Below are positions 1,651-44,568 of a DNA stretch of 51,390 nucleotides, one piece after another. A model generated the notes under the pieces. That model ran no database searches. It saw nothing but the letters and a program-made list of their open reading frames with translations, and had not been told where the DNA came from. Source of the DNA: Planctomycetaceae bacterium (GTDB lineage: Bacteria; Planctomycetota; SZUA-567); NCBI GenBank assembly GCA_021201355.1, contig JAJQFC010000142.1, positions 1-51,390 of the forward strand, given 5' to 3'. How positions within the stretch are numbered: position 1 is the stretch's first letter; each line of letters begins with the position of its first letter. The position numbers and the translations under genes are program-made.

Positions 1651-4251
1651 ATGGGTGTCACCTATGATATCGAAGCACTTACTCAGCGTCAAATGGAGAA
1701 CGAAGAAAGGGTTATCGACGGGGGAATCTCGAAATACCGGGAGGCCCTGGAAAAAGCCGCCGCCGCCGGGCAGTTTGCGGATACCGTTCCGGGGCGCTGG
1801 CTGACCTCGAATTTTATCGAGCCGATTGCATGCAAAATCAGGGCATTCGTCCATGAGGTTATATCAGGAAAGTCAGGCCGGTTCACCGGCGGCGCGGCGA
1901 TTCTGAACCGGCTTCAGTATGATGCCTGTGCTTATATCGCCCTCCGGAACATCATCAATTCCATCACGGATTCTAAAGGTTCCCACGAGAAATCCAGCGT
2001 CGTTTCCAGGATATCCCGCGATCTCATGGAGGAGATCCGCCACAACATCATGGCCGCCGAGAAAACCCAGACATACAAATACTGGATGAAGCAAGTCCAA
2101 CGCTCTCCACACAGGGAGACAAAGAAACGCTGCCTCATGCACCTCAAGAAAAACTTCGAAAATCTTCCTGAATTCAAAACAGACAAGGAAAAACAGGACA
2201 TTCTCGCGGCCGCTGAGTTTCTCATCCAAGCGGTAATCAGCGCTACCGGGATAGCCCGCGTCGTCACCCGGGTCAAGCACGGAAAAACCGGCCCTAAGAC
2301 GCCGGATTTCTTGGAACTGACACCTGAATACTTTAATAAGGTCAACGCACTTAACGACCGCGCGGAATCACTGTGGCCCAAGTTTGAACCGATGGTATGT
2401 CCGCCCCGGCCGTGGACCGGTGCATTCGGAGGTGGCTTCGTTGGTAAGCTTGGGGAGCGCACCGTTCTGGTCCGCACCGGCAACCGCTCATATCTGGAAG
2501 ACATTCACAATAACATCGGAAAAATGGACAAGGTTCTCGATGCTCTGAATGCTATCCAGGCCACACCATGGCGTGTCAACACGCGGGTGTATGAGGTAAT
2601 GCAAACCGCTTTCGCTGGAAACGGCCGACAGTATGGGCTGCCGGGAAGTGAACCGCTGCCTTCACCCGTCTGCCCCAAGGATATTACAACGAATAAGGAA
2701 GCAGCCAAACGGTTTGTCAACGATTTGAAAGCTGTCCAGCGCTTGGAAGTAAAACGTGCGTCCCGATACCGGGCAGTCGATTTCCTCATCTCGACCGCCG
2801 GGAAATACAAGGATGAGTCTGCGATTTGGTTCGCTCATAATCTCGACTGGCGCGGCCGGATCTATCCACTGTCTTCTTATCTATCGCCGCAGGGAGAGGA
2901 ACTTTCCCGCGCCTTATTGGAGTTCGCAAACGGACTCCCGCTGGAAACCGACGCGGCTGTCGAATGGCTGGCGATCCATGGTGCCGGATGCTGGGGGTAC
3001 GATAAGGTCTCGTTCGCCGACCGCGTGGCTTGGGTCCGTGAAAACCAAGAGCGTATACTTCAGTCAGCCGCCGCGCCATTGGACTACGGCTGGTGGACCA
3101 AGGCTGATAAGCCGTGGATGTTCCTGGCGTGGTGTTTCGACTGGGTTGGCTACTTGGAGAACGGAAAGGCTCACGTCTCTCACCTGCCGGTCGCCATGGA
3201 CGGTTCCTGTAATGGACTTCAAAACTTCGCTGCCATGTTGAGGCATGAGGGCACGGCCAAGGCTGTCAACCTCATCCCCTCAGAAGTACCGGCCGATATT
3301 TACCAAGAGGTCGCTGACAAGGTGAAGCCGGTGGTCGAGCGTATTGCCGTCAGTGACCCACGGATCGACTCGGAAATTCTCACTGAGGCCGAAGCGCGGA
3401 CCGCAATGGAGTACGCCGACGAGGACAAGACCACCATCAGTAAAGCTGAACGCGACCGCACGGCTGCTTTGTGGGATGTCCTATCCGCCCGTTGGATAAA
3501 GGATCACATCTCTCGGAAGCTGGTCAAGCGAAACGTCATGACGTACCCCTATTCCGTCACCCTGTATGGCATGAGGGATCAGCTTGTCGAAATTCTGCTT
3601 GATATGCACGGGGAGGGAAAGACCAACTACCCCATTGAACACGTCGGGAAAGTGGCGGGAATGCTGAAGACGGTGGTGTTCAAGGCCATTCAGGATACTG
3701 TGGTGGCCGCCGCCAAGGCGATGGAATGGCTTAAGAGCGCGGCCAAGGTCGTCGCCGAGGGAAACCTGCCGGTGAAGTGGGTGTCGCCGGTAGGAATGAT
3801 CGTGATGCAGAATTATTGGAAATCCACAAAGAAAAGAATTAGTGTTGTCATTGGCGGAATCCAGTATCAACCAGCACTTTCTTTCGAGAAGGAGGGGGAG
3901 GTAAAGGTAAACAAACAGGCCGCTGGTGTGGCTCCGAACTTCGTCCACTCATGTGATGCCTCTCACCTCATGTTTACTGTTCTGGCTTGTTGCGAGAAAG
4001 GAATTCGCGACTTCCACATGATCCATGATTCATATGGCACCCACGCTAGCAATGCCTCTGCCCTGGCCCGAACCCTTCGTGAACAATTCATCCACATCTA
4101 CGGAGGCGGTGACGTCCTTTCAAACTTTTATGAGCAGCTGAAGACTCAGGTGGCGGATAAGCCTGAACTCGCCGAAAAAATACCGGCTCCGCCGACTCCA
4201 GATAGCCTTGATCTTTCTCTTGTTTTAAAATCAAAATACTTCTTCGCTTGA
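1651..4251 (+). CDS. T7-like single-subunit DNA-directed RNA polymerase
   Basis: 866 residues (T7 gp1: 883). It transcribes the phage middle and late genes from phage-specific promoters. All polymerase motifs are present: the DWRGRIYP segment, motif A DGSCNG with the metal-binding Asp517 (T7 D537), motif B KRNVMTYPY with Lys626 and Tyr634 (T7 K631 and Y639), and motif C HSCDAS with Asp769 (T7 D812), followed by FHMIHDSYGTH. The ATG at 1651 is preceded by GGAAGG locked in a hairpin (1623-1640). In the circular phage genome the gene would follow the integrase across attP. In the prophage it sits at the opposite end from the early promoters. The gene looks intact, so the prophage is potentially inducible. 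Confidence 0.97.
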   Translation: MGVTYDIEALTQRQMENEERVIDGGISKYREALEKAAAAGQFADTVPGRWLTSNFIEPIACKIRAFVHEVISGKSGRFTGGAAILNRLQYDACAYIALRNIINSITDSKGSHEKSSVVSRISRDLMEEIRHNIMAAEKTQTYKYWMKQVQRSPHRETKKRCLMHLKKNFENLPEFKTDKEKQDILAAAEFLIQAVISATGIARVVTRVKHGKTGPKTPDFLELTPEYFNKVNALNDRAESLWPKFEPMVCPPRPWTGAFGGGFVGKLGERTVLVRTGNRSYLEDIHNNIGKMDKVLDALNAIQATPWRVNTRVYEVMQTAFAGNGRQYGLPGSEPLPSPVCPKDITTNKEAAKRFVNDLKAVQRLEVKRASRYRAVDFLISTAGKYKDESAIWFAHNLDWRGRIYPLSSYLSPQGEELSRALLEFANGLPLETDAAVEWLAIHGAGCWGYDKVSFADRVAWVRENQERILQSAAAPLDYGWWTKADKPWMFLAWCFDWVGYLENGKAHVSHLPVAMDGSCNGLQNFAAMLRHEGTAKAVNLIPSEVPADIYQEVADKVKPVVERIAVSDPRIDSEILTEAEARTAMEYADEDKTTISKAERDRTAALWDVLSARWIKDHISRKLVKRNVMTYPYSVTLYGMRDQLVEILLDMHGEGKTNYPIEHVGKVAGMLKTVVFKAIQDTVVAAAKAMEWLKSAAKVVAEGNLPVKWVSPVGMIVMQNYWKSTKKRISVVIGGIQYQPALSFEKEGEVKVNKQAAGVAPNFVHSCDASHLMFTVLACCEKGIRDFHMIHDSYGTHASNASALARTLREQFIHIYGGGDVLSNFYEQLKTQVADKPELAEKIPAPPTPDSLDLSLVLKSKYFFA

Positions 4252-4731: not shown

Positions 4732-5454
4732 GTGACACACGATTCGCCACTGCAACGTCTGCCCGACGACGTCCTTGAGAAAGTCGTGGCGGCGTTGCCC
4801 GCAGAAGTGAAAGAAGTACTGTTCGTTTTCCCGCAATTGTTCGTCGCCGGCGGTGCCATCCGGTCCATCCTCGCGGGTGAACCCGTGAAAGACATCGACA
4901 TCTTCACCACCAGCCTGCCCGTCGTCCACCTTGCGGTGCCCCGTTATATCCAGGAGGTCGGTCCCGATGCAGATTGGAAGGAACACCGTACGCCCTGTAC
5001 TCGGTCCATCACCGTTGTGGGTGATTATCCACCTGTGCAGTTCATCAACAATATCGCCTACGAGTCACCCGAGGACTGTGTCCGACGATTCGACTTCACC
5101 ATCTGTCAGGCTGCCATCTGGAGGACGGAGTCCGGCTGGACTTCCTGCTGTTCCCCTGACTTTATCCGGGACGTCGCCGCGAAGCGACTCGTCTACACCT
5201 CTCCCGAACGAGAGGAAGCGCCCGGTGGTTCCCTCTGGCGAGCCATTAAGTTCGTCCAGCGCGGTTATTCGATCACTCAGGAAGAACTCACCAAACTCAT
5301 CGTCAGATTGAACAAGCAGACCATGCGATTCTATCGGGAAATCTACGGCAACCCGTGGCAATACGATGCTGATGATCATGGAGACGTTATTCGTTGGTCG
5401 TTCCACATGCCGTCTACCTGTAAGTGTACTGCCGTTACGGGTGGATATCTTTAA
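4732..5454 (+). CDS. Nucleotidyltransferase-fold (poly(A) polymerase head-like) protein
   Basis: 240 residues. The start is GTG 4732, preceded by AAGGAG; the nearby ATG is immediately followed by a stop. Residues about 36-60 read FVAGGAIRSILAGEPVKDID, which matches the GG...R...G...D-x-D signature of the pol-beta/tRNA nucleotidyltransferase superfamily, with the two aspartates as likely metal ligands. A later RRFDFTICQ segment fits the third acidic strand of that fold. Proteins of this type occur in many phage middle regions, but their substrate is generally unknown. Here it lies just before a candidate phage promoter and SSB. Confidence 0.75.
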   Translation: MTHDSPLQRLPDDVLEKVVAALPAEVKEVLFVFPQLFVAGGAIRSILAGEPVKDIDIFTTSLPVVHLAVPRYIQEVGPDADWKEHRTPCTRSITVVGDYPPVQFINNIAYESPEDCVRRFDFTICQAAIWRTESGWTSCCSPDFIRDVAAKRLVYTSPEREEAPGGSLWRAIKFVQRGYSITQEELTKLIVRLNKQTMRFYREIYGNPWQYDADDHGDVIRWSFHMPSTCKCTAVTGGYL

Positions 5455-5529: not shown

Positions 5530-6174
5530 ATGAGTCAACCCAAGGTAAAAACTGAAGTTACACCTAAAGGTGTTTTCGTCTATCCGTGTCTCAACAGACC
5601 CGACACGAAGTTCGACGATGCGGGGGTCTATTCCGTCAAGCTGAAGCTGGACGCTGACGCTGCTACGCCTCTCAAGACCAGGATCGATGAACTGATCGAA
5701 GCCCAGGTCAAGAAGGTTCAGGACGAACTCGCCGCTGAAGGCAAGAAGAAGAAAGTCAAATGCGCCGACACCCCGTATTACGAGGACGAGGAGACCGGCG
5801 AGGTCACCTTCAACTTCAAGATGAAGGCGTCCGGCAAGCGGAAAGATAAGACCACCTTCACCCAGAAGCCGGGTCTGAAAAGCAGTGTCGCTGATCCTGT
5901 GACCAAGCAGCCTAAGGACATCCCCGAAGATGTCATCATCGGTGGCGGCTCCGAGGGCAAGGTCGCGTTCTCGTTCTCTCCGTTCTACGTTCCGGCGCTT
6001 GGGGCTGGTGTCTCTCTGCGGCTGAAAGCCGTTCAGGTCTTCAAGCTGGTTGAGCCTTCGTATTCCTATGGGTTCGAAGCGGAGGAATGCGAGGAAGAGT
6101 CCGAGGGTGCTGACACTGACGATGCGCCTTTCGACGGTGACACCGATACGGGATCGGATGACGGCGATTTCTAA
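5530..6174 (+). CDS. ssb: T7 gp2.5-like single-stranded DNA-binding protein
   Basis: 214 residues (T7: 232). It coats single-stranded DNA and bridges primase-helicase and polymerase at the replication fork. The N-terminal part fits the OB-fold of gp2.5 (KGVFVYPCLNRPDTKFDD). The last 40 residues are strongly acidic and end in DDGDF, like the T7 tail EDGDF that docks onto gp4 and gp5. The ATG has AAAGGA nine bases upstream. It overlaps the endonuclease gene by 17 bases, as neighbours in one transcript. Confidence 0.93.
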   Translation: MSQPKVKTEVTPKGVFVYPCLNRPDTKFDDAGVYSVKLKLDADAATPLKTRIDELIEAQVKKVQDELAAEGKKKKVKCADTPYYEDEETGEVTFNFKMKASGKRKDKTTFTQKPGLKSSVADPVTKQPKDIPEDVIIGGGSEGKVAFSFSPFYVPALGAGVSLRLKAVQVFKLVEPSYSYGFEAEECEEESEGADTDDAPFDGDTDTGSDDGDF

Positions 6175-6658
6175 GAACCGATATCACGGGATCGCCGCCG
6201 GGTACCGGTCCGGCCTGGAGGAAGTGGTCGCGGAAGACCTGAAGCGCCGTGGTGTCGAAGCGAAATACGAAGCGGTCAAGATCCAGTACACCAAACCAAG
6301 TAAGCCATCGACATACACACCGGACTTCGTCATCGAGAAAGAGCAGAAATGCCCTCAGTGTCGTGGTAGAGGATACTGCAAACATATCACCGGAGAACGG
6401 GACGATTGTTCCTGGTGTGGCGGAACAGGCGTTTATAAAGAAGATCTCATTATTGAGACCAAGGGTCGCTTTGTCACGGCCGACCGCCAGAAACATCTTC
6501 TCATCAAGAAGCAACATCCCGATCTCGACATTCGCTTCCTGTTCCAGAATTCCCGTGCCCGCATTTCCAAGACATCGAAAACCACCTACGCCGACTGGTG
6601 CCGTAAACACGGCTTCATCTACGCCGACAAGGTCATCCCCGAGGAGTGGTTGAAATGA
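6158..6658 (+). CDS. T7 endonuclease I-like Holliday junction resolvase with a zinc-finger-like insertion
   Basis: 166 residues from ATG 6158 (T7 gp3: 149). It cleaves branched DNA and helps degrade host DNA and resolve concatemers. The T7 active-site residues align: Glu21 (RSGLEE), Glu38, Asp56 (TYTPDF), Glu100 and Lys102 (ETKG). Between Asp56 and Glu100, where T7 has about nine residues, there are about 43. They carry two DnaJ-type CxxCxGxG motifs (Cys65/68 and Cys84/87, plus Cys74), probably binding a metal. The DRQKHLLIKKQHPDLDIRF segment matches T7 closely. It overlaps SSB upstream and the amidase downstream by ATGA. Confidence 0.93.
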   Translation: MTAISKNRYHGIAAGYRSGLEEVVAEDLKRRGVEAKYEAVKIQYTKPSKPSTYTPDFVIEKEQKCPQCRGRGYCKHITGERDDCSWCGGTGVYKEDLIIETKGRFVTADRQKHLLIKKQHPDLDIRFLFQNSRARISKTSKTTYADWCRKHGFIYADKVIPEEWLK

Positions 6659-13004: not shown

Positions 13005-13817
13005 ATGCTTTCAACCGAAGTTTATTATCTCAAAAACAGTAGTCTCCGTGGCTACTGGTGGTACGCCATCATTGAACGCGGCCATCTCGGCCAAGTCATC
13101 GAACGCTTCACCAAACGCCCGTGTGCCAACAAGAGGGACGCCTACAGGCTTGCCCGCGTGGCACTTGCCAAGGCCCAGGGGAACGCGATGCGGCTTAACC
13201 CTTACGTCACCGTCCTGATTTCCCTCTCGATACTCCTCGGCGGCCTTATCCTCTTCACCGGGTGCCACAAGTCTCCCACCGCGCCGCCGCCGGTGCCTCC
13301 GAAGGATGCCGTCACGGCAAAGGAGGCGGTCCCCGTTGCGACCGACCCTTTTCACGACGTCGCAAGAAAAACCGCCGCCGTCATCGCTGACACGGCCCGG
13401 GAACAGCCCTCCATCATCTCCACCGAAAGCCTGGAACGGCTCCACATCTCCGGCCTTGCTTTACTGTTCGTCGCCATCGCCGCCCGGTTCCTGTTCGGAC
13501 GCTGGAAGGACGCCTACATTGCCACCGGCCTCGGTGTCATCCCGAGCGTCCTCGCCGTCCTCCTCACGGAATACTCGCGGGTGGTTCTTCTCGTTCCCCT
13601 CTGTGGGTTGGCGCTTCTGACGCTCGTCGTCTACCGGCGGCTGGCCGAGTGGCGCACCAAAGCCCAAGGCTTCGACGCCGCATCCACCGTCATTGAAAAG
13701 GCGGACACCGGGCCGAGCTCCCTTGGGCAGCTTATGAAGGATCGTATTGCTGAGACGCCGGTCGCAGGAATCGTCGACAAGGCGCTGACCTATATGGAGA
13801 AGTTATGGACAAAGTAG
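13005..13817 (+). CDS. Multi-pass membrane protein with a lipobox-like segment
   Basis: 270 residues. A soluble basic N-terminal part (1-61) precedes a hydrophobic segment with LILFTGC, then a proline-rich linker (SPTAPPPVPPK). Two or three further membrane segments lie around 145-165 and 175-215. The ATG at 13188 could start a separate lipoprotein whose lipobox cysteine is near residue 26; the listed frame would then be two genes read as one. GAAAGGA precedes the ATG at 13005. The function is unknown. Confidence 0.6.
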   Translation: MLSTEVYYLKNSSLRGYWWYAIIERGHLGQVIERFTKRPCANKRDAYRLARVALAKAQGNAMRLNPYVTVLISLSILLGGLILFTGCHKSPTAPPPVPPKDAVTAKEAVPVATDPFHDVARKTAAVIADTAREQPSIISTESLERLHISGLALLFVAIAARFLFGRWKDAYIATGLGVIPSVLAVLLTEYSRVVLLVPLCGLALLTLVVYRRLAEWRTKAQGFDAASTVIEKADTGPSSLGQLMKDRIAETPVAGIVDKALTYMEKLWTK

Positions 13818-14302
13818 TGGACGCCCGCTGTATTCCGTCCAGAACGACCACGTGGCTTACACCACGATGGATACTGGATGCCCTGGGCGAGTTTGATCTG
13901 GACCCGTGCTGCCCTCCGGAAATGCCCTGGCGGACCGCCCGTAACATGATCTACTATCCGAAGCAGGATGGTCTGCCTGCATGTTGGACCGGACAACGTG
14001 TCTGGCTCAATCCACCGTACGGTCGCGACATGGGGCTATGGATGAAGAAAATGGCATACCACTGCAACGGCACTGCCCTTGTCTTCGCCAGGACTGACAC
14101 CAAATGGTTTCACCATTACGTTGTCGGTCACGCGCTCTCAATTCTATTCCTGAATCGACGGGTTCGCTTCTGTCGTCCCGACGGTACGCCCGGCGGCAGC
14201 CCGGCGGCTCCGTCGATGCTTCTGGCCTACGGTGCCCGGGATTATGACATCCTCTACGACCTCGCCTACAACCACGGCTGGGGAGCACACGTCTGCCTCT
14301 AA
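13805..14302 (+). CDS. Phage DNA N6-adenine methyltransferase (Dam-like)
   Basis: 165 residues, matching the short phage DNA N-6-adenine-methyltransferase family. TPRWILDALGEFDLDPCC is the typical N-terminal recognition segment, and VWLNPPYGRDM contains the NPPY catalytic motif of adenine-N6 methylation. It probably protects phage DNA from host restriction. It overlaps the membrane protein gene by 13 bases. Confidence 0.88.
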   Translation: MDKVVDARCIPSRTTTWLTPRWILDALGEFDLDPCCPPEMPWRTARNMIYYPKQDGLPACWTGQRVWLNPPYGRDMGLWMKKMAYHCNGTALVFARTDTKWFHHYVVGHALSILFLNRRVRFCRPDGTPGGSPAAPSMLLAYGARDYDILYDLAYNHGWGAHVCL

Positions 14303-14321
14303 AAATCTTAAAGGATACGTA

Positions 14322-15203
14322 ATGGTCACAATTACCAAACACGTTGGCAAGAACGCCAGCGTGACGAAATACGTGTTTGATTTTGAAACCGCTGTCGCCG
14401 AAGCTGTTCTTTACAAGTACCCCTCTTTTAAAGAGCGCACGGTGGTATGCTGTTCAGTACAAAGCGGGTGTCCGATAGGTTGTATCTTCTGTGGAACGGG
14501 TCGAAAGTTCATTCGCAACCTTACCTGCACCGAAATTCTACAGCAGATTCACCATTGTTTTTCAGACAACGCAATCGACGCTGAGAAAGTCGATAGGCTC
14601 CAGATCATGTTTATGAGCATGGGCGAACCATTGCTCAACATGCCCAACCTATCTTTGGTCTTACGCAACCTAACATGGAGGTTTCCGAGATCCGAACTTC
14701 TTGTCAGTACCATGGGGCCAAAAACTCCAGGTTGGCAAGAGTTCTTCGAGATTTCTGAGTACATCAATAATCTGGGGTTGCAATTTTCAGTGCATGAAAC
14801 TGTTGATTTCAAGCGAGATTCCCTCATCCCCTACGCCAGTAAGTTTAATCTCGCAGAAATTGCTGATACTGGCCTTCTATGGCATGAGTTTACCGGCAGG
14901 AAGCCTTTCATCAATTATTGTGTCAAAGAGAGCAACTGCTCCCATGAAGATGCTAAGCGGCTTCTAAGCCTTTTTCCGCCGTCGGCTTTTAATTACACAC
15001 TTTCTGTGGTGTGTGAAAAGAATGAAACGGTTAAAGCGTCAGTAGAAAGACAGCTCCTCCTGATCGCGGATTTCAAGGGCAAGATCATGGCCCTTGGTGG
15101 TCCTGCATGCAGAATCTTCAACCCGGCCGGCCAGGATGATATCGGCGGCGGCTGTGGGCAGCTTTGGCATACGCAGAAGTGGATGCAGGAACATGGTGTC
15201 TAG
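14322..15203 (+). CDS. RlmN/Cfr-like radical SAM methyltransferase
   Basis: 293 residues from ATG 14322 (after AAAGGA); longer upstream frames overlap Dam. The radical SAM cluster motif CPIGCIFC has Cys50, Cys54 and Cys57. Cys43 lies seven residues before, as RlmN Cys118 does. The sequence has MGEPLLN, the SAM-binding GEP motif. Cys278 in GGGCGQLW matches the RlmN Cys355 that forms the methyl-enzyme intermediate. The N-terminal helical domain of RlmN (about 90 residues) is missing. The family methylates C2 (RlmN, 23S rRNA A2503 and tRNA) or C8 (Cfr) of adenine. The gene is markedly more AT-rich than its neighbours, which suggests acquisition. The phage substrate is unknown. Confidence 0.87.
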   Translation: MVTITKHVGKNASVTKYVFDFETAVAEAVLYKYPSFKERTVVCCSVQSGCPIGCIFCGTGRKFIRNLTCTEILQQIHHCFSDNAIDAEKVDRLQIMFMSMGEPLLNMPNLSLVLRNLTWRFPRSELLVSTMGPKTPGWQEFFEISEYINNLGLQFSVHETVDFKRDSLIPYASKFNLAEIADTGLLWHEFTGRKPFINYCVKESNCSHEDAKRLLSLFPPSAFNYTLSVVCEKNETVKASVERQLLLIADFKGKIMALGGPACRIFNPAGQDDIGGGCGQLWHTQKWMQEHGV

Positions 15204-15981
15204 GACCACACTTCTTATCGACGGCGACGTGGAAGCCTTCAAGGCAGCCACCGTCAACCAGGAGGTCATCCCGTGGGATGACGAAATACCGACAACCGAA
15301 ATTAACCCGAAGGGGGCGGAAGACTATCTGGTCTCCGCCCTCGAACGTTATCGGGACACCCTGAAGGCCGACCGGATGATCGTCTGCCTTACCGCGCCGG
15401 ACAACTGGCGAAAGAAGCTATGGCCCGACTACAAGGTCAATCGGAGCGACAAGGACCGTCCCGTCCTCCTCGGGCACTGTCATGGTTTCCTCTCGACTCA
15501 TTACGAGACCGCCCGCTGGCCTCGCCTGGAGGCGGACGACGTCATGGAGGTTCTTTCCCAGACAATCGACGGTAGCGTCATCGTGTCCGTGGACAAGGAC
15601 ATGCGGACTGTGCCGTGCCGGCTCTACAACCCGGGGAAACCCGAGGACGGAATCGTCTGGATTGACGAGGTTATGGCCCACGAGTGGCACATGATGCAGA
15701 CCCTCACGGGTGACGCTGTGGATGGCTACAAGGGCTGTCCCGGCATCGGCCCGAAGAAGGCCGAGAAGGTTGTCCGGGAGGTGTTCGACCGGGTTAATCC
15801 CATTCAAAACTATTCTAAATGGAGAATCGAATTATGGAATGCTGTTGTGAAAACGTACGAGGAAAAATCCGTGCCTGCCAGCGAGGCGTTATTGAACGCG
15901 CGTTTGGCGTACATTCTACGGCACCCGAGCGAGTACAACCGGATGACGTCGAAGTTGAAACTGTGGCGACCTCCGACCTGA
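15193..15981 (+). CDS. T7 gp6-like 5'-3' exonuclease (FEN family)
   Basis: 262 residues (T7 gp6: 300). It removes primers and degrades host DNA into nucleotides for phage synthesis. FEN landmarks are TTLLIDGDVEAFKA with the first metal-binding Asp, RLEADDVMEVL, VIVSVDKDM, and the helix-hairpin-helix GDAVDGYKGCPGIGPKKAEK. ATG 15193 was chosen since it overlaps the RlmN-like stop by 11 bases; upstream codons are not family-like. Confidence 0.93.
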   Translation: MVSRTTLLIDGDVEAFKAATVNQEVIPWDDEIPTTEINPKGAEDYLVSALERYRDTLKADRMIVCLTAPDNWRKKLWPDYKVNRSDKDRPVLLGHCHGFLSTHYETARWPRLEADDVMEVLSQTIDGSVIVSVDKDMRTVPCRLYNPGKPEDGIVWIDEVMAHEWHMMQTLTGDAVDGYKGCPGIGPKKAEKVVREVFDRVNPIQNYSKWRIELWNAVVKTYEEKSVPASEALLNARLAYILRHPSEYNRMTSKLKLWRPPT

Positions 15982-16568
15982 TCATCGGGCTTGGGCACCG
16001 GAAGCGCGTCGGAAAAAACACGTTCGCGGAAATGCTGGAAGAGGAACTGACCGAACGCGACTACGACGTCTACCAGATGGCGTTCGCACATGATATGAAG
16101 GCTATTGCCCATGAAATGTTCGGGGTGTACGGCCTCCGCGACGCTTTCCATTACGAGGTTAATCCCAATCACCGCGAACAAGTTCTGGACGGGTTCCCCA
16201 AAACGCCGCGCCAATTGTGGATTGAGTTCGGAAATGCCGTGCGAAACATCGCCCCGGACATCTGGGTTGATCGTGTCCGCAACCATATCGAAACCATCAC
16301 TCTTTACAACAAGCTGAATCAGCGCGGCCCTGCGGCTTTCATTATCACCGACGTGCGGTTCCCCAACGAAGCCGACGCCATCAGGTCGTGGAGAGGCCAC
16401 CTTGCCGTCATCCATCGCTGCGCCGCACCCATCGCCGACGATCCTGCCGAGACGGCCCTTGACCGTTATCATGGCTGGGCATGGACGGTTCGCAACGACC
16501 GCACTTTCGAATACCTCGCTCAGCAGGCGCGGAACTATGTCAATTTTCTCACTTCACCTAAAGGTTAA
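15963..16568 (+). CDS. Deoxynucleoside monophosphate kinase-like P-loop protein
   Basis: 201 residues from GTG 15963, where the protein begins MATSDLIIGLGHRKRVGKNT, a P-loop of the type seen in T4 gp1 dNMP kinase (GxxxxxGKxT). It has DVRFPNEADAI later, as in that family. It likely phosphorylates the dNMPs released by host DNA degradation. The same frame is open to ATG 15819, which would add 48 residues overlapping the exonuclease gene by 163 bases. That extension is cysteine- and arginine-rich and looks like a shadow, but no clear ribosome binding site precedes the GTG either. Confidence 0.82.
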   Translation: MATSDLIIGLGHRKRVGKNTFAEMLEEELTERDYDVYQMAFAHDMKAIAHEMFGVYGLRDAFHYEVNPNHREQVLDGFPKTPRQLWIEFGNAVRNIAPDIWVDRVRNHIETITLYNKLNQRGPAAFIITDVRFPNEADAIRSWRGHLAVIHRCAAPIADDPAETALDRYHGWAWTVRNDRTFEYLAQQARNYVNFLTSPKG

Positions 16569-43233: not shown

Positions 43234-43478
43234 ACAAGTATATAGTCGAGATCACCGCCGATATCCCATACCCGTGGCCGAGGTCGTATCGCGAGGAAGC
43301 CACCAACGAAGGCGCGGCCATCTCCCGGGCACTCCGCCAATACCGCGCGGACGTCCGTAATCGGACCGGCAGGGGGAAGCAGATCAAGTCCGCGTCGGTG
43401 AAGTTCAGGAACTGCGGCCGGGTCGTTCAGGAAGCCGAGGAGGCCATGACGGCCGGGGAGGAGGTGGCTAATGTCTAA
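43230..43478 (+). CDS. Small hypothetical protein before the integrase
   Basis: 82 residues, basic, with the pattern YREEATNEGAAISRALRQYR. It overlaps the preceding stop and the integrase start, so the four genes 42530-44568 form one compact operon. No family is recognised. Confidence 0.65.
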   Translation: MNKYIVEITADIPYPWPRSYREEATNEGAAISRALRQYRADVRNRTGRGKQIKSASVKFRNCGRVVQEAEEAMTAGEEVANV

Positions 43479-44568
43479 GGCAGCGAATACTCCGCGCGGC
43501 CTCTACAAACGCGGCGATGTCTGGTACTCCCGCATTGCCGGTCCCGACGGGCGGCTCATTCGGAAGCGCCTGTCCGCCGACAAGCAGACGGCGATCCTTA
43601 TGCTGAATGAGATGCGGAAGACAACCGAACTCCAGAAATTCGGCGTCCTCCCGAGGAATGTCCACAAGGAAATTAAGGACTGCGCCACCCTGAAAAACCT
43701 GTTCTTCGAACGGCTCAGAACCCGGGGCCGACGTAGCAAAACGATCATGATCTACGAGTTCGCTTGGAAGTACGTCATCGAGGACAATAACATCGTTTCC
43801 ATTGACCAGATCACCATGAGCAAGATTCAGGAACTCGTCAAGCGGCTGAAGGCGAAGGGAATGCGCGCGCAAAGCATCAACATATACGTCGGCGTGGTCA
43901 AGGCTGCGCTGGCCTGGGCGAGAGATTTCGAGTACATTAAGACGAACCCGCTGGCTCGCTGGGAAAAGCTGAGTAAAGATCCATCCCTCAAGCGCCGGGA
44001 TTTCACGCTGGACGAGGAGCGGCGTTTCCTGGCGGCGGAGACCAACCCGGAGTACCACCTGCTGTGGCTCTTGTACTTCCGCACCGGTCTTCGGGCCGAC
44101 GCCGGGCTGGCCGCCGAGTGGTCCTGGATTTTGTGGAATGAACAGGCGATGATGCTGCCGGAGGAGCATAATAAATCCCGGAAGGATCTCTGGATTCCCC
44201 TGGATTCCGAACTCTTCGAGGATCTAAAGGAACGGCACGCCTCGCTTCCTGAAGAGAAAAGGCAGGGACGAATCTTCCGGCCGATATCGCGCACCCCTCT
44301 TCGCAAACGGTTCAAGAGCGTCTGCGAGGCGGCGGGTATTGACAGCGAGGGGCTTTGCCTGCATTCTATCAGACACACCTATGCGACGGCCTCGTATGAA
44401 GCGTCGGGCAATAATGTAAAGGTGGTTCAGGAACTTTTAGGCCACGCCCACGGCTCGACGTCGATGCTGTACATCCACGCGACCAATCAGCAGAAGCGTG
44501 AGGCAGTGGAGCAGAACGCCCTCCGCCGACTCAGGAACGCAGGCGAAGAACTTCGTATCGCGGAGTAA
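43471..44568 (+). CDS. int: Tyrosine-type site-specific integrase
   Basis: 365 residues. It integrates and excises the phage. The catalytic set is complete: Arg208 (TGLRADAG), Lys235 (NKSRKDLW), His298-x-x-Arg301 (HSIRH), His325 (LLGHAH) and the nucleophile Tyr334 (SMLYIH). The N-terminal part is an arm-binding domain (RGLYKRGDVWYSRI) with a core-binding helical domain at about 75-165. The stop lies 27 bases from the candidate attachment core. In the circular phage it is upstream of the RNA polymerase gene, as in other integrase-bearing T7-like phages. Confidence 0.96.
   Translation: MSKAANTPRGLYKRGDVWYSRIAGPDGRLIRKRLSADKQTAILMLNEMRKTTELQKFGVLPRNVHKEIKDCATLKNLFFERLRTRGRRSKTIMIYEFAWKYVIEDNNIVSIDQITMSKIQELVKRLKAKGMRAQSINIYVGVVKAALAWARDFEYIKTNPLARWEKLSKDPSLKRRDFTLDEERRFLAAETNPEYHLLWLLYFRTGLRADAGLAAEWSWILWNEQAMMLPEEHNKSRKDLWIPLDSELFEDLKERHASLPEEKRQGRIFRPISRTPLRKRFKSVCEAAGIDSEGLCLHSIRHTYATASYEASGNNVKVVQELLGHAHGSTSMLYIHATNQQKREAVEQNALRRLRNAGEELRIAE

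Follow-up and report, generated by a model that had tools for sequence, protein, structure and literature searches.

A short radical SAM protein of a T7-like prophage and its mostly viral relatives: a variant of RlmN and Cfr linked to genes of NAD+ synthesis

INTRODUCTION

The textbook enzymes that methylate an aromatic carbon by radical chemistry are RlmN and Cfr, and the substrates of both are large RNAs: RlmN is the C2-methyltransferase of A2503 in 23S rRNA and of A37 in tRNA, whereas Cfr methylates C8 of the same rRNA nucleotide. The window analysed here, 51,390 nucleotides that make up a whole contig (JAJQFC010000142.1) of a metagenome-assembled genome of a Planctomycetaceae bacterium, carries in a prophage a gene for a short protein of this kind, and the question that it raises is what an enzyme equipped with the RlmN machinery and devoid of its RNA-binding part does for a phage. 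The initial annotation had proposed an adenine methylase of rRNA or tRNA. The comparison of the protein with its relatives, and of the genes that accompany them, points elsewhere, to the metabolism of NAD+.

THE GENE AND ITS PROPHAGE

The features of the window to which the text refers are the following, in order of position:

1651..4251, plus strand: T7-type single-subunit RNA polymerase of the prophage (context)
6050-6658: phage endonuclease I of the prophage
13805..14302, plus strand: Dam-type DNA N6-adenine methyltransferase (PF05869, E 1.5e-9), upstream neighbour, listed as context and not as a functional partner
14310..14315, plus strand: ribosome-binding site AAAGGA, 6 nt 5′ of the ATG, read from the sequence
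14322..15203, plus strand: mini-RlmN ("g1") radical SAM gene, 293 aa, with predicted [4Fe-4S] cysteines C50/C54/C57, predicted proton-abstracting C43 and methyl-carrying C278, and without the N-terminal RNA-binding domain
15151..15981, plus strand: 5′-3′ exonuclease (PF02739, PF01367), downstream neighbour, whose mechanically called reading frame overlaps the end of the mini-RlmN gene (context)
15960..16568, plus strand: deoxynucleotide monophosphate kinase-like gene (PF21448, E 6e-6, a weak match under the Pfam cut-off; context)
43471..44568, plus strand: tyrosine integrase of the prophage (PF00589; context)

Translation of 14322-15203 gives an intact, stop-free reading frame of 293 codons that encodes the radical SAM protein. 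A longer, mechanically called frame starts at 14232 and is superfluous, because AAAGGA stands 6 nt ahead of the ATG. The gene lies between the Dam methylase and exonuclease genes of a T7-like prophage, in which genes for a primase/helicase, a DNA polymerase, portal, capsid and tail proteins and a terminase were recognised by reading the translations, and which is bordered on both sides by bacterial-looking genes. The description of the gene as AT-rich and phage-borne was thus sound, with the refinement that "phage" means here an integrated T7-like prophage with its own T7-type RNA polymerase and integrase: the G+C content of the gene is 47.6%, against 55.8% for the prophage, and its third-position G+C is 54%, against 63-80% in eleven other prophage genes. 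The low G+C of the gene relative to its prophage fits a recent acquisition.

Several other observations concern the prophage itself. Positions 1651-44568 hold a temperate T7-like phage, with both a T7-type RNA polymerase and an integrase; it is integrated next to genes for a regulator of the AraC/XylR type and a protein of the Gfo/Idh type. A search for exact repeats of at least 14 nt found no terminal repeats or attachment sites, and megablast matched the first 25 kb of the window to no known phage. A 240-aa reading frame at 4732-5454, which belongs to no Pfam family, has a marginal match (E 0.001) to phage CCA-adding/poly(A) nucleotidyltransferases.

RELATIONSHIP TO RLMN AND CFR

That the protein derives from the RlmN/Cfr kind of radical SAM enzyme, as had been noted at the outset, is supported by family models, by structures and by aligned cysteines. 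The NCBIfam RlmN model TIGR00048 matches the window protein with an E value of 5.6e-27 and 94.6 bits, well under its cut-off of 290 bits, and matches the relatives described below with 100-122 bits; the Cfr models reach 66-72 bits against cut-offs of 468-550. Chains of RlmN and Cfr in the PDB match with E values from 2e-13 to 2e-10. An AlphaFold model of the protein (mean pLDDT 89.7, pTM 0.89) has RlmN and Cfr as its top eight PDB matches, with TM scores, normalised by the query, of 0.71-0.77 for RlmN, and the lower matches are unrelated or more distant folds, viperin and further radical SAM enzymes among them. In a joint alignment, the window cysteines C43, C50, C54, C57 and C278 fall exactly on C118, C125, C129, C132 and C355 of E. 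coli RlmN and on C105, C112, C116, C119 and C338 of Cfr. The protein therefore has the CX3CX2C radical SAM cluster motif (C50/C54/C57), the equivalent of the resolving cysteine C118 (C43) and that of the methyl-carrying cysteine C355 (C278), so that all the functional cysteines listed in the initial annotation are in place. Its other structural claim, the missing N-terminal RNA-binding helical domain, agrees with the model matches, which begin at about model position 70-80 and never cover the N-terminal part.

Compared with RlmN (PDB 6fz6, 3rf9, 5hr7), the protein and its relatives share the radical SAM fold, the CX3CX2C motif, the resolving and methyl-carrying cysteines and the GEP and CGQL motifs. 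They differ from it in lacking the RNA-binding domain, in the replacement of the residues equivalent to R206, N307 and R344, in a substrate loop, FDPAGQDDIGGGCGQLW, that is one residue longer, in their acidity, in scores under the cut-off of the RlmN model and in their position outside the RlmN clade. The fold and the cysteine set are likewise shared with Cfr (PDB 9p0p), whose Y97 corresponds to Y33 of the window protein; unlike Cfr, the relatives have lost W101, S103, N288, R327 and the RNA-binding domain, score under all Cfr cut-offs and do not group with Cfr. Judged by sequence, the window protein is neither RlmN nor Cfr and is a member of a separate, widespread and mostly viral clade, called g1 here.

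A SEPARATE, MOSTLY VIRAL CLADE

The closest relatives found by tblastn, 44-53% identical, are encoded by phages of Salmonella, Stenotrophomonas, Aeromonas and Vibrio and by a 462-kb uncultured phage. A search of viral contigs with the single protein found no relatives; alignment-based searches found 176-183 viral ones, together with 35 loci from genome assemblies, at least one of which (L144) is an ordinary RlmN. In the first set of 94 non-redundant proteins, which are 284-333 aa long, the five cysteines are invariant (94/94), as they are in the 63 aligned rows (63/63), and the cysteine context includes a GCGQL motif. The alignments place the window protein in g1 by the absence of the RNA-binding domain, the five cysteines and the NYC, SV(I/V)C and FDPAGQDDIGGGCGQLW-type motifs. 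Another family of short radical SAM proteins that descend from RlmN, g2 (L301-L380; for example L016:3854-4642 and L013:3830-4705), is likewise widespread in phages and probably corresponds to PHROG 24834, to go by the best PHROG match of the window protein.

In a maximum-likelihood tree, g1 and g2 stand together on one side of a split with 100/100 support, and RlmN and Cfr on the other; the placement of g2, a long branch nested within g1, is doubtful. The phylogeny speaks against grouping the protein with either RlmN or Cfr. In cells g1 is rare: of 29 genomes of the window's class one has it, and in the families sampled around two other carriers it turned up in 1 of 150 and 1 of 291 genomes. 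Given these numbers, vertical inheritance in cells was considered and rejected. The g1 genes travel on phages and on other kinds of mobile DNA.

Some public records of these genes carry doubtful names. The member in Stenotrophomonas phage BUCTxx99 (L009:4962-5921) is annotated as a "prohibitin family protein", and the ANB28 copy as rRNA methyltransferase RlmN. Very diverged RlmN-like proteins occur in Pseudomonas phage 201phi2-1 and in Bacteroides phage Versailles (L014:3872-4780, L015:3818-4825), and in these the C-terminal cysteine is kept and the resolving one is not.

LOSS OF RNA BINDING

In the structure of Cfr bound to rRNA, the RNA or the target adenosine is touched by the N-terminal domain and by individual residues, R184, N288 and R327 among them (PMC13001441, preprint). 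The counterparts of these three in E. coli RlmN are R206, N307 and R344, positions that show no variation in the aligned RlmN rows. In g1, the position of N307 is occupied by serine in 63 of 63 rows and that of R344 by phenylalanine, again in 63 of 63, R206 is replaced in the same rows, mostly by alanine, and the N-terminal RNA-binding domain is absent throughout. The FDPAGQDDIGGGCGQLW loop, which precedes the methyl-carrying cysteine, is a conserved substrate loop of g1's own. The proteins have a median pI of 5.5, with 90% of them below 7 (the window protein has 7.05), while most of the RlmN sequences examined are basic.

These results bear directly on the possibility that g1 methylates some new RNA target, such as 23S rRNA or the anticodon loop of a phage or host tRNA, that it can bind RNA in spite of the missing N-terminal domain, and that it helps translation or shields RNA from host toxins. 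Descent from RlmN and the full catalytic set are what such an enzyme would have, the g1 members of Stenotrophomonas phages sit in tRNA clusters, and genes for Pth2, CCA-adding enzyme, RtcB or RNA ligase lie within 1 kb of g1 in 10 loci, a mild excess. However, the domain and the residues that contact RNA are gone across the clade, whose proteins are acidic, and the density of tRNA genes around g1 does not depend on distance (0.021 per kb adjoining it and 0.025 per kb at 4.5-7 kb), although that of tRNA-related enzymes falls over the same range from 0.041 to 0.006. In addition, all five genomes tested carry, besides g1, a second RlmN-like gene that scores at the level of an ordinary RlmN, and the window's own genome also carries a full RlmN. 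An RNA methylase would, moreover, leave the NAD operons described below unexplained. We therefore regard this reading as unlikely, and the methylation of rRNA or tRNA adenine suggested in the initial annotation is disfavoured by the 100/100 separation from RlmN and Cfr, by the loss of the RNA-binding domain and RNA contacts and by partner genes that belong to NAD rather than to tRNA metabolism.

GENES OF NAD+ SYNTHESIS AS NEIGHBOURS

Genes of NAD metabolism were apparent near g1 from the first clustering of neighbours. Representatives were confirmed with Pfam and NCBIfam models as nicotinamidase, nicotinate phosphoribosyltransferase, NAMPT, NAD synthase, NadD, an NMNAT-type transferase, a PRPP-synthetase-type protein, NAD kinase, PncC and NrtR. 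In a set of 124 g1 loci, made non-redundant at <85% protein identity, a NAD gene lies within 1 kb in 32 and within 3 kb in 37, nearly all of the close ones on the same strand; the set was drawn from the 80 best loci for each query, not at random, and its members share ancestry. Loci with a NAD gene number 0.132 per kb right beside g1 and 0.012 per kb at a distance of 4.5-7 kb, an eleven-fold drop. The g2 family had been chosen as the negative control for NAD neighbours and proved to be NAD-linked itself, so viral RtcB genes were used instead: only 2 of 60 of them have a NAD gene within 3 kb (Fisher p 1e-5 against g1, a value that overstates independence since the loci share descent).

A count of Pfam families in the immediately upstream and downstream reading frames, made without chosen seeds, led to the same genes. 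The leading families are NAPRTase/NAMPT (8 upstream and 4 downstream), the NAMPT N-terminal domain (7 and 4), Nudix (5 and 2), CTP_transf_like (4 and 3), isochorismatase (3 and 1) and NAD synthase (1 and 2), and one reading frame directly upstream has a NADAR domain. On the tree, the NAD label requires at least 14 changes, 10 of them forced by well-supported branches, and the association is therefore not that of one lineage. In the same count, the reading frame that immediately follows one g1 gene encodes the Thoeris inhibitor Tad3, which hints at a counter-defence locus.

On two cellular contigs g1 is part of an operon. The operon of Ornithinimicrobium murale runs PncB-PncA-g1-NrtR, its genes overlapping by 4 nt, and has integrase- and transposase-like genes nearby. 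On a Bacillota contig, overlapping genes encode a nicotinamidase-like protein (PncA), PncB, g1, NadE, a second radical SAM protein, NadD, PncC, NAD kinase (NadK) and NrtR; the contig, which comes from a metagenome-assembled genome and could be misassembled, also has housekeeping genes, those for EF-Tu and ribosomal protein S7 among them. The second radical SAM protein of the latter operon, between NadE and NadD (L128:9794-10495, the same as L153:4034-4735), is small and belongs to no known family.

The g1 clade is, in sum, genomically tied to NAD+ synthesis, and the link is strong. It is also optional. There is no NAD gene within 3 kb in 70% of g1 loci, and only 4 of 44 viral NAMPT loci have g1 or g2, from which it follows that these proteins are not needed for NAD synthesis. 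No NAD gene was detected in the window prophage, and adjacent NAMPT and NMNAT genes, the mark of a NARP2-like NAD+ supply operon, are absent from it.

Two readings can be weighed on these data. The linkage could be incidental, with g1 a generic auxiliary gene of unrelated function in large phages that pool metabolic genes. Most g1 loci do come from large phages, and the low count at NAMPT loci would agree with it; the steep fall with distance, the RtcB control and the overlapping genes inside the two cellular operons would not, and we think it improbable. The Dam methylase, exonuclease and nucleotide kinase-like genes that adjoin g1 in the window prophage would suit an enzyme that marks phage DNA with 2- or 8-methyladenine, but these neighbours, unlike the NAD genes, do not recur in the clade, which makes the modification of DNA bases a very remote prospect.

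A SISTER FAMILY WITHOUT THE METHYL-TRANSFER CYSTEINES

The g2 proteins, found for example in Pectobacterium phage Arno162 and in Kehishuvirus "tikkala", resemble those of g1 in being short, RlmN-derived, viral, devoid of the RNA-binding domain, NAD-linked and on the g1 side of the tree. A NAD gene lies within 3 kb in 20 of 57 g2 loci, so that the family is as NAD-linked as g1. Unlike g1, g2 lacks the equivalents of both C43 and C278, the resolving and the methyl-carrying cysteine, in 57 of 57 proteins, and its chemistry must differ because both methyl-transfer cysteines are missing. As the two families are equally NAD-linked, the role in NAD metabolism may not need methylation.

This opens the possibility that g1 acts in NAD metabolism without methylating, through another radical reaction that repairs or converts a pyridine or ADP-ribose compound, or that its target is the pyridine ring and not adenine. 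The invariance of C43 and C278 in all g1 proteins examined, together with the GCGQL motif, is what would be expected for methyl transfer, and for this reason the alternative seems rather unlikely to us in spite of the g2 example.

PROPOSED FUNCTION

Our tentative proposal, which may well be right, is that g1 is a radical C-methylase of a small nucleotide of the NAD+/ADP-ribose type, and an optional part of the viral NAD+ supply or of counter-defence. A small nucleotide is suggested as substrate because the methyl-transfer chemistry is kept, the grip on RNA is lost and NAD partners recur. Within NAD+/ADP-ribose metabolism, the adenine ring would be the most likely site; adenine is what RlmN and Cfr recognise, and the simplest guess is therefore that g1 acts on the adenine of NAD+ or of an ADP-ribose compound. 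By analogy with RlmN, SAM would first methylate C278, a 5′-deoxyadenosyl radical would then turn the C278-bound methyl into a methylene radical, this radical would add to an sp2 carbon of the substrate, and C43 would take the proton so that the product is released. The window copy is assumed, from its family membership, to do the same chemistry. In the phage, the enzyme would serve as an optional accessory to NAD+ supply, plausibly by providing a pool of NAD or ADP-ribose compounds that NAD-based host immunity cannot use.

A role in immune evasion is plausible because phage NAD+ supply counters NAD-depleting immunity, and because RyDEP sets a precedent in NARP1. RyDEP, an accessory enzyme that acts on ADP-ribose signals, is encoded within this phage NAD operon (PMC13232231). 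The NAD+ reconstitution operons NARP1 and NARP2 have NAMPT, NMNAT and PRPP-synthetase-like partners of the kind found near g1, as well as optional accessory genes in the operon; in contrast to g1 loci, no radical SAM protein is mentioned for them in the papers searched (PMC12774641, PMC13232231). They differ, too, from the window prophage, which is without the partner genes. A more specific version, that a viral radical SAM enzyme C-methylates the adenine of NAD+/ADP-ribose compounds and that phages and some bacteria thereby live on NAD that bears a chemical mark or put NAD-derived immune signals out of action, is conceivable but doubtful.

CONCLUSIONS

The literature searched, which was that available without subscription and included a survey of NAD/ADP-ribose systems in viruses (PMC9503650) and one of jumbo phages (PMC7824862), does not mention any radical SAM or RlmN-like protein with a NAD role. 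As far as could be checked, g1 is a variant of the RlmN/Cfr kind whose link with NAD+ metabolism is undescribed, and phage genes that public records label "RlmN" or "rRNA methyltransferase" may be misnamed. Methylation of adenine in NAD+ or ADP-ribose compounds, if it takes place, would give the chemistry of RlmN and Cfr a novel class of substrates and would itself be a novel type of NAD modification. If g1 has moved to NAD metabolism, that chemistry would extend to small nucleotides, and the conflict between phages and bacteria over NAD+ would gain an unrecognised component.
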